Shown here: positions 806-2,845 of the stretch, in pieces
Layout of the letters: the number at the start of each line of letters is the position of its first letter
Numbering within the stretch: position 1 is the first letter of the stretch
NCBI GenBank assembly: GCA_028688515.1
Contig: JAQTXZ010000001.1
Location: 620,001 to 684,000, forward strand
From: Patescibacteria group bacterium
Lineage (GTDB): Bacteria; Patescibacteriota; Patescibacteriia; 2-12-FULL-60-25
Direction of reading: 5' to 3'
DNA length: 64,000 nt
The notes under the pieces: generated by a model
Database searches by the model: none
What the model was told of the DNA's origin: nothing
The model's input: only the letters and a program-made list of their open reading frames with translations
Program-made: the position numbers and the translations under genes

Positions 806-2590
806 TTAGGATCTCTCGCTGATTAACTTAAGAACTTTTTCCACAAACTCTGCTTTTGGCAGGGTTTCTTGGTTATCCACACCCCTCCATCTGACGGTCA
901 ATTCGCCGTCCATTTCTTTATCTCCATACACAATCATGCACGGCATCTTCTTTTTTTCCGCATTGCGAATCTTTTTGCCGACAGATTCGGTCGAATCGTC
1001 AACTTCCACCCTCATCCCCTGCTCTTTCAACTCGTTTGCAAACTTTATTGCCGCATCGACGTGCCTGTCTGCAACCGGAAGCACAGAGACCTGAACCGGC
1101 GCAAGCCAAAGCGGGAAAGCGCCGGCGTAATGTTCGATCAGGACTGACAGAAAGCGCTCAATCGAACCCATAATGGCGCAGTGGATCATAACAATCCCCT
1201 CTTTTTCACCTTTTTCGTTGACGCAATTCAAATCAAAATTAACCGGCATGTTAAAGTCCAACTGAATTGTCGCAACTTGATGCAAGCGGCCCAAGGCGTC
1301 TTTGCCCATAAAATCGAGTTTCGGGCCGTACATCGCTGCTTCACCCTTACCCTCCACGAAAGAGACTCCCCGCTTCTCGATCAAACTCTTAAGCTGACTT
1401 TCCGCTTCTTGCCAGACTTCCGGTGTTCCCAAATACTTATCAAAGTTATCCGGGTCATGCGTGGAAAGTCTTAAGTTAAGCTCAAAGCCAAAAGTTTTGT
1501 AAAAAACGTCGATGATATCCCAGATGGCAAAACATTCCTGTTCAATCTGATTTTTGCGGCAAAACACATGCGCATCATCCTGCGTGATGCAACGCACGCG
1601 CGAAAGGCCAGAAAGCTCGCCCGTCTGTTCATCGCGATACACCATGGTCGTCTCGGCATAACGTTGCGGCATATCGCGATAGCTGCGCATCTCGGAGTCG
1701 AAAATCTGCGTGTGATGCGGACAATTCATGGGCTTTAACGCAAACTCGTGATTTTCGCGTGTGACAATCTTGAACAGCTCGTCTTTGAATTTTGCCCAGT
1801 GCCCGCTTTTAACGTAAAGATCTTTTTTGGTGATGTGCGGAATCGCGACTTTGGTAAAACCCTTGGCTTTGCGCAACTCCCAAACATATTCATCCAAAAC
1901 AGTACGCAAGATAGTCCCCTTTGGCGACCAAAGAGGCAAACCGCTGCCAACAAGATCGGAAAAAGAAAACAAACCAAGCTCTTTGCCTAATTTTTTATGG
2001 TCGCGCTTTTCCGCTTCTGCCATCATGGCCTCATACGCATCCAATTCCTCTTGCGTCGCAAAACATAATCCGTAAATGCGTTGCAACTGCGGATTTGTTT
2101 CTTTGCCGCGCCAAAATGCGCCGGCCATCTTCCAAACTTTAAAAGCTCCGATCTGGCTTGAATCCTCCACATGAGGACCGCGACAAAGATCTGTAAAATC
2201 CCCCGTCGTATATACGCTGACTTTGCCTTGCATGGCCGGATCAACGTCTGCCGCTTCTTCCGCCGAAAGTTTTGTCGTACCTTTTGTCTTAATATCGTTC
2301 AACAGTTCGACCTTAAACGGCTGATTCAATTTTTCAAACAAAACGATAGCCTCATCGGCGCTCATCTCCTGACGCTCGAACGCGAGTTTCTTGTTTGCCA
2401 GCTTTTGCATCTCTTTTTGAATTTCTCTGAGATCCTCGGGCGTAACCGTGCGGCCGATGTCTATGTCATAATAAAAACCATTGTCCACGGCCGGACCAAC
2501 GCCGAATTTGGCATTCGGGAAAAGTTTTTGAATCGCGGCAGCCATAACATGTGCCGCACTGTGACGAATTTGTTCGATGGAATAGCTCAT
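806..2590 (-). CDS. thrS: Threonyl-tRNA synthetase lacking the TGS domain
   Basis: Class II synthetase that charges tRNA-Thr, 594 aa. The N-terminal editing domain shows HxxxH (H10, H14) and CxxxH (C136, H140), the pattern that clears Ser-tRNA-Thr. The catalytic core has the zinc ligands C290, H341 and H470. Motif 2 is near residues 310-340, and motif 3 (GSIERF) ends near 480. The anticodon-binding domain fills the last ~110 residues. The usual N-terminal TGS domain (about 60 residues) is absent: the editing domain begins at residue 1. The residue after H470 is Cys where Arg is usual. There is no Shine-Dalgarno before the ATG at 2590. The gene sits about 220 nt downstream of its promoter, behind a T-box riboswitch. 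Confidence 0.97.
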   Translation of the reverse strand: MSYSIEQIRHSAAHVMAAAIQKLFPNAKFGVGPAVDNGFYYDIDIGRTVTPEDLREIQKEMQKLANKKLAFERQEMSADEAIVLFEKLNQPFKVELLNDIKTKGTTKLSAEEAADVDPAMQGKVSVYTTGDFTDLCRGPHVEDSSQIGAFKVWKMAGAFWRGKETNPQLQRIYGLCFATQEELDAYEAMMAEAEKRDHKKLGKELGLFSFSDLVGSGLPLWSPKGTILRTVLDEYVWELRKAKGFTKVAIPHITKKDLYVKSGHWAKFKDELFKIVTRENHEFALKPMNCPHHTQIFDSEMRSYRDMPQRYAETTMVYRDEQTGELSGLSRVRCITQDDAHVFCRKNQIEQECFAIWDIIDVFYKTFGFELNLRLSTHDPDNFDKYLGTPEVWQEAESQLKSLIEKRGVSFVEGKGEAAMYGPKLDFMGKDALGRLHQVATIQLDFNMPVNFDLNCVNEKGEKEGIVMIHCAIMGSIERFLSVLIEHYAGAFPLWLAPVQVSVLPVADRHVDAAIKFANELKEQGMRVEVDDSTESVGKKIRNAEKKKMPCMIVYGDKEMDGELTVRWRGVDNQETLPKAEFVEKVLKLISERS

Positions 2591-2664: not shown

Positions 2665-2698
2665 AAAAAACCGACCAACCCAATTAAGGACTCGTCGG
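2665..2698 (-). terminator. T-box-controlled intrinsic terminator before thrS
   Basis: In RNA sense: CCGAC pairs with GUCGG, a second block of five pairs (one mismatch between) closes a UUAAUU loop, and six U follow. The 5' arm shares bases with the 3' arm (CCCG) of the antiterminator, so the two folds exclude each other. Confidence 0.85.
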
Positions 2699-2810
2699 GA
2701 CCCTTCTTCGCTAAAGCTACGAAGGGCGGTTCCACCCGTATTCCCCCGATGAACATCGGGGACACTTTTATCTTTAATTTTCTTGCGATATCCGGTTGGT
2801 AGCCGGAACG
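2665..2810 (-). promoter_or_regulatory. T-box riboswitch, compact form, controlling thrS
   Basis: Seen in RNA sense, 5' to 3'. A 5-bp hairpin (UCCGG/CCGGA, 2791-2807) has loop CUACCAA containing the Thr codon ACC. An A-rich linker follows, then a 7-bp hairpin with loop GUUC (2744-2761). Next comes GGGUGGAACCGC, the canonical T-box core. The antiterminator (2696-2738) has A1 arm CGGG/CCCG, bulge UGGAACC, and a 7-bp A2 hairpin. The terminator overlaps it. Known: uncharged tRNA reads the specifier codon and pairs its 3' end with UGGN to stabilise the antiterminator. Inferred: uncharged tRNA-Thr(GGU), with discriminator U to match UGGA, switches thrS on. The long Stem I of classical T-boxes is missing. 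Confidence 0.85.
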
Positions 2811-2816
2811 ATTAAT

Positions 2817-2845
2817 AGAATAGGACGGATGTTGGTGGGAGTCAA
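2817..2845 (-). promoter_or_regulatory. Promoter of thrS
   Basis: TTGACT (2840-2845), 17-nt spacer, TATTCT (2817-2822). Predicted start near 2810, immediately before the first T-box hairpin. Confidence 0.85.

Follow-up and report, generated by a model that had tools for sequence, protein, structure and literature searches.

A probable minimal T-box riboswitch upstream of thrS in a Patescibacteria group bacterium

How is thrS controlled in a bacterium where this gene follows a leader of only about 145 nt, and can so small an RNA sense tRNA? The question is raised by a 64,000-nt stretch of DNA, referred to below as the window, from a Patescibacteria group bacterium (GCA_028688515.1, contig JAQTXZ010000001.1, positions 620,001 to 684,000). 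The leader lies on its minus strand (2845-2665) with thrS downstream. A sequence-only reading of the window had proposed a promoter, a 5-bp hairpin with ACC in the loop, a 7-bp hairpin, an antiterminator and an overlapping terminator with six U residues, all arranged before thrS. Each of these elements was located on the minus strand (Table 1). The leader is very probably a T-box riboswitch that attenuates thrS transcription and makes only two contacts with the tRNA, a minimal design.

Table 1. Features of the thrS leader in the window
Feature	Positions	Strand	Remark
thrS, threonyl-tRNA synthetase, proposed regulated gene	806..2590	-	TIGR00418 equivalog, 655.8 bits vs cut-off 383.65
Promoter: -35 TTGACT (2845-2840), 17-nt spacer, -10 TATTCT (2822-2817)	2817..2845	-	
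Minimal Stem I: 5-bp hairpin UCCGG(CUACCAA)CCGGA, 7-nt loop	2791..2807	-	covarying pairs
Specifier ACC (Thr), complement of anticodon GGU	2798..2800	-	in Stem I loop
A-rich linker, 28 nt, where Stem II and IIA/B pseudoknot would be	2763..2790	-	
Stem III	2743..2762	-	7/7 pairs covary; conserved AA (2742-2741) next
Antiterminator CGGG-[UGGAACC]-GCCCUU.../...AAGGGU-CCCG: A1 CGGG/CCCG, bulge, A2	2696..2738	-	
Antiterminator bulge UGGAACC	2734-2728	-	UGGA complementary to tRNA UCCA
Intrinsic terminator: hairpin 2698-2671 and U6 2670-2665	2665..2698	-	overlaps A1 3' strand

The RNA is predicted to start a few nucleotides 5' of the specifier hairpin. The promoter match to the consensus is by itself not above chance; the site is conserved in the family leaders. 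The whole leader folds better than its shuffled versions (z -3.1). The anticodon loop of tRNA-Thr reads AUGGUAA in this genome and in the family, and U2801 and A2797, which flank the specifier, could form extra pairs with A37 and U33 of this tRNA. The 3' end of the linker (AAGUG) fits the RRRNG motif preceding Stem III, and AA follows the stem, in keeping with the RRRNG-Stem III-AA motif of T-boxes (PMC7778990). These flanks are kept in the homologues. Short tandem TAATTAG/TAATTAC repeats occur at 2597-2630, in the stretch that leads from the terminator to the start codon of thrS, and GTAATT repeats resembling them were seen in L032.

Conservation was assessed with a covariance model (R1) built from four leaders and carrying no thrS information. 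The model matched 25 of the 41 family genomes, the four training leaders counted in. All but one of these matches (24/25) lie directly 5' of thrS, and the remaining one ends at a contig edge. The Rfam T-box model (RF00230) gave no match over its cut-off of 93 bits in this genome and no more than 37 bits on 20 family leaders; a scan of the window at gathering and relaxed thresholds returned no T-box match. The same layout was present upstream of ten out of ten thrS homologues retrieved by protein search from Parcubacteria, Saccharibacteria and other Patescibacteria. Standard pairs fill 96% of the pair cells in 22 family leaders, with two-sided changes at 17 of the 22 pairs, including four of the five in Stem I; such changes number 103 vs 31 in shuffles. 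RNAalifold found the same helices, Stem I among them, in a MAFFT alignment made independently of the model. It is this comparative evidence that most strongly opposes a chance origin, since a model blind to thrS lands on thrS and the paired columns co-vary. The earlier claim of a real T-box with a minimal Stem I is thus borne out by concordant model matches, covariation and predicted helices.

Within the family, the TTGACN-17-TAnnnT promoter is conserved, and the Thr codon is placed 11-19 nt past the -10 element in most leaders. The linker from Stem I to Stem III varies from 22 to 39 nt, and a few family members carry a small hairpin within their longer linkers. Upstream of Stem III, the linker of many family leaders contains ACAAUC or AAAAUU (alignment A5; window linker 2790-2763), perhaps as a contact with the tRNA. 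In several R1-negative family genomes, thrS has no T-box leader, for example in the leaderless L268-L278. At one of these loci, L275 (genome G001), thrS is immediately preceded by a TTGACGG-TATTCT promoter, as would be seen after a clean loss of the switch or before its gain. A switch that is a dispensable module would be expected to leave some relatives with thrS but no leader.

The Stem I loop holds the codon ACN in 24 of 24 distinct family leaders. This is mostly ACC, with ACG in L065, L067 and L070 and ACA in L061; ACU is found in L100, a thrS leader from another family. Across the phylum the loop codon tracks the downstream gene, being ACN before thrS, AUC before ileS and GGC before glyS. 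The agreement was counted in a fixed hairpin slot (stem of at least 4 bp and loop of 7-9 nt with XXXAA at its end, XXX being the tested codon). Of 129 phylum leaders, 49 had a slot codon cognate to the gene (shuffled mean 21, maximum 32; 0/5000), as did 14 of 64 non-Thr leaders (shuffled mean 5.3, maximum 11; 0/5000), in a test that is partly post hoc since the slot was chosen after the Thr, Ile and Gly loops had been viewed. With an earlier, looser hairpin descriptor spanning 290 nt the signal was noisy, with 21 cognate non-Thr leaders vs a shuffled maximum of 22.

The result for UGGN is not post hoc. UGGA in the bulge had been taken to predict a tRNA-Thr with discriminator U, and the prediction proved correct. 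In this genome tRNA-Thr(GGU), (UGU) and (CGU) all end with U73-CCA, complementing UGGA, and the family's tRNA-Thr(GGU) carry U73 without exception (30/30). Of the tRNAs checked in this genome, only those for Thr, Gly and Cys have U73. In the phylum, UGGA was found in all thrS leaders (65/65) and all Gly leaders (22/22), UGGU in most Ile (16/20) and all Val leaders (6/6), and UGGC in eight of nine Asp leaders. The absence of the expected UGGU from four of the 20 ileS leaders counts against the T-box interpretation. As judged from these leaders, UGGN varies with the downstream gene and tracks the tRNA discriminator across the phylum. The covariation of the ACC loop and UGGN expected by the sequence-only reading was also observed, both elements changing with the downstream gene.

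The antiterminator and the terminator of the window share CCG and therefore form mutually exclusive folds. Calculated energies are -50.3 kcal/mol for the terminator fold vs -46.4 kcal/mol with A1 forced; the terminator is the default fold, and the energies are compatible with a switch that is off by default. The structure predicted for a transcript that stops about 10 nt into the terminator contains Stem I, Stem III and the antiterminator. A terminal U-run is present in 22 of 22 family leaders, and the terminator hairpin overlaps A1 by at least 2 nt in 17 of them. About five family leaders show little or no overlap as folded, which counts against the switch. A further point against is that, by folding alone, the 5' half of the full leader prefers other pairs to those of Stem I once the start is trimmed, whereas covariation favours Stem I.

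The mechanism proposed here builds on the anatomy and conservation of the leader, on the agreement of codon and UGGN with gene and tRNA, and on the mutually exclusive folds, all of which the compared sequences document. The nascent RNA would begin nearly at the 5-bp hairpin, and the loop ACC would pair with the GGU anticodon of tRNA-Thr. Threonine shortage would leave the UCCA end of the loop-bound tRNA-Thr free to pair with UGGA in the bulge. This would stabilise the A1/A2 helices; the overlapping terminator could not form because of this stabilisation by the uncharged tRNA, and thrS would be transcribed. Charged tRNA-Thr would bind the loop but would not enter the bulge, and the terminator would form. 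The single-stranded linker of about 28 nt would stand in for the K-turn, Stem II and the pseudoknot. The thrS leader would presumably bind tRNA, respond to its charging and allow read-through in this manner.

T-box classes I-IV are distinguished by Stem I and Stem II (PMC10482949). In class III ileS T-boxes, Stem I is short and bears the specifier in its apical loop, and the elbow-binding module is lacking (PMC10482949, PMC7583486). Their loop measures 5-6 nt, a K-turn is present, Stem II with a pseudoknot is required, and control of ileS is mostly at the level of translation (PMC10482949, PMC7583486). The K-turn has been called essential for tRNA binding by short-Stem I T-boxes (PMC7583486); given this published requirement, a form without it might bind tRNA weakly. 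In the window, a 17-nt hairpin directly follows the promoter, and the long Stem I with an internal specifier loop and the elbow-binding double T-loop are absent. Stem II and the IIA/B pseudoknot are not present in the window either, the 28-nt linker taking their place. In the family, neither a lower Stem I helix nor a K-turn exceeds the shuffled expectation; a lower helix occurs in 9 of 24 leaders vs a shuffled mean of 10.7, with a mean length of 3.8 vs 3.9 in shuffles. The window fold also suggests a closing helix in which the 5' end (UCGU) pairs with ACGA downstream of the antiterminator; this helix was rejected because it is not conserved, with a mean of 3.6 bp vs 3.9 in shuffles. The terminal-loop specifier and the missing elbow module described by the sequence-only reading are indeed present, but they do not stand as unusual traits, since both are known from class III ileS (PMC10482949, PMC7583486). 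What is unusual on comparison is that a transcriptional switch specific for Thr has also lost the K-turn, the lower stem and Stem II.

The family shares the apical specifier, the short Stem I, the lack of an elbow module and the same discriminator domain with class III (Nocardia farcinica and Mycobacterium ileS). Unlike class III, it has a 7- or 9-nt loop, a transcription terminator and thrS as the gene, with neither K-turn nor Stem II. Transcriptional control and a single-stranded linker instead of Stem II are common to the family and class II (Bacillus subtilis glyQS), the latter differing by a long Stem I, K-turn, internal specifier loop, elbow module and glycine specificity. With class I (RF00230, e.g., B. 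subtilis tyrS) the family has in common RRRNG-Stem III-AA, the antiterminator with a UGGN bulge and the overlapping terminator, while the Stem I and Stem II domains of that class are lacking. The K-turn-bearing short T-boxes of other Patescibacteria are also transcriptional, with the discriminator domain and an apical loop ending in codon-A-A (or -A-C). Unlike the window's family, they have a K-turn-like junction with a lower helix, and additional hairpins often separate their Stem I from Stem III. Its specifier, discriminator and switch place the leader among the T-boxes, but it fits none of the four described classes. The seemingly new feature is a transcriptional T-box lacking the elbow-binding module, K-turn, lower Stem I and Stem II/pseudoknot at once; no smaller transcriptional T-box architecture was found in the open-access literature searched.

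The absence of these parts would be only apparent if the leader were an ordinary class I or class III T-box in which a larger Stem I, a K-turn or Stem II had been overlooked because of an upstream start or a misread fold. Full-length Rfam T-boxes do exist in the phylum (13 of 380 genomes), and a lower helix with a K-turn-like UGA/GA junction is found under the same apical loop in many T-boxes of other Patescibacteria, among them thrS, ileS and glyS leaders (e.g., L035-L037, of which L035 and L036 are from Saccharibacteria, L097, L100 and L201), as in L100: AAGC-GAUGAA-GGAG(ACUAACUAA)CUCC-AGA-GCUU. However, the family promoter puts the codon so near the -10 element in most leaders that there is no room for a larger Stem I, and the Stem I flanks pair no better than shuffled flanks. 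Where the Rfam model matches weakly, as in L047, it sets its own Stem I on unrelated upstream DNA, and the real hairpin is counted as an insertion. An overlooked larger Stem I, K-turn or Stem II is thus very unlikely.

It is very unlikely that the leader is a decayed T-box in which the antiterminator senses 3' ends and the hairpin is non-selective, so that any uncharged U73 tRNA (Thr, Gly or Cys) could act. The contact surface is very small, U73 alone limits the choice to three amino acids in this genome, and several family members, such as L275, lack any leader; yet all the distinct family leaders retain ACN despite changes in the third codon base and in the stem pairs, and other cognate codons fill the same slot before ileS and glyS. 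The hairpin also has the size of an anticodon arm (5-bp stem, 7-nt loop) and precedes thrS, as might be expected of a ThrRS-binding operator mimicking tRNA-Thr, similar to the E. coli thrS operator. Its loop, however, bears the codon ACN and no Thr anticodon NGU, the same layout precedes ileS and glyS, and both the canonical UGGN antiterminator and the Stem III motif belong to T-boxes. Attenuation by a leader peptide would call for a short ORF containing consecutive Thr codons, which was not visible by eye in the leader. An operator or a leader peptide is extremely unlikely.

With the leader regarded as a minimal T-box, the family probably represents a fifth T-box class native to Patescibacteria. 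This class would rely on two short pairing contacts (codon-anticodon and UGGN-NCCA) joined by a flexible linker, would dispense with the K-turn, Stem II and the elbow contact, and would make its decision during transcription.

Patescibacteria are missing from older T-box surveys. No mention of T-boxes in this phylum was found in the open-access literature searched; an earlier description elsewhere is possible. A model of the discriminator domain alone (R2) was run on 380 genomes sampled across the phylum and matched in 134 of them. The downstream genes, identified by clustering and NCBIfam, are chiefly thrS, glyS, ileS, aspS and valS. The Rfam T-box model exceeds its gathering cut-off, with canonical long T-boxes, only in the 13 genomes mentioned above, and gives matches at E <= 0.001 in 127. 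In a core-pattern search of the genome under study, only the thrS leader looks real, five other sites being without the layout. A second thrS subgroup with a short Stem I (L178, L199, L209, L126, L079, L040, L098, L124) shows a recurrent GAUUG immediately preceding the hairpin, which possibly pairs elsewhere or forms a variant K-turn. UGGU discriminator domains lie directly 5' of argG-like genes in other Patescibacteria (L208, L211); judging from the protein start, these genes may encode argininosuccinate synthase. T-box-like matches also precede non-synthetase genes (L187, L164, L179, L109, L227), which by eye include 2-oxoacid:ferredoxin oxidoreductase, a possible glutamate-related enzyme, a DNA polymerase IV-like gene and others. 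These may be either new targets or false positives.

T-boxes thus appear common in Patescibacteria, to an extent that the Rfam cut-off does not reveal. Whether any T-box can function without a K-turn is a published question (PMC7583486), and the family described here is a natural test of it. Since this is a natural family without the K-turn, Stem II and the elbow contact that would nevertheless act on transcription, an RNA of about 145 nt would allow the minimum of a tRNA-sensing switch to be tested directly.
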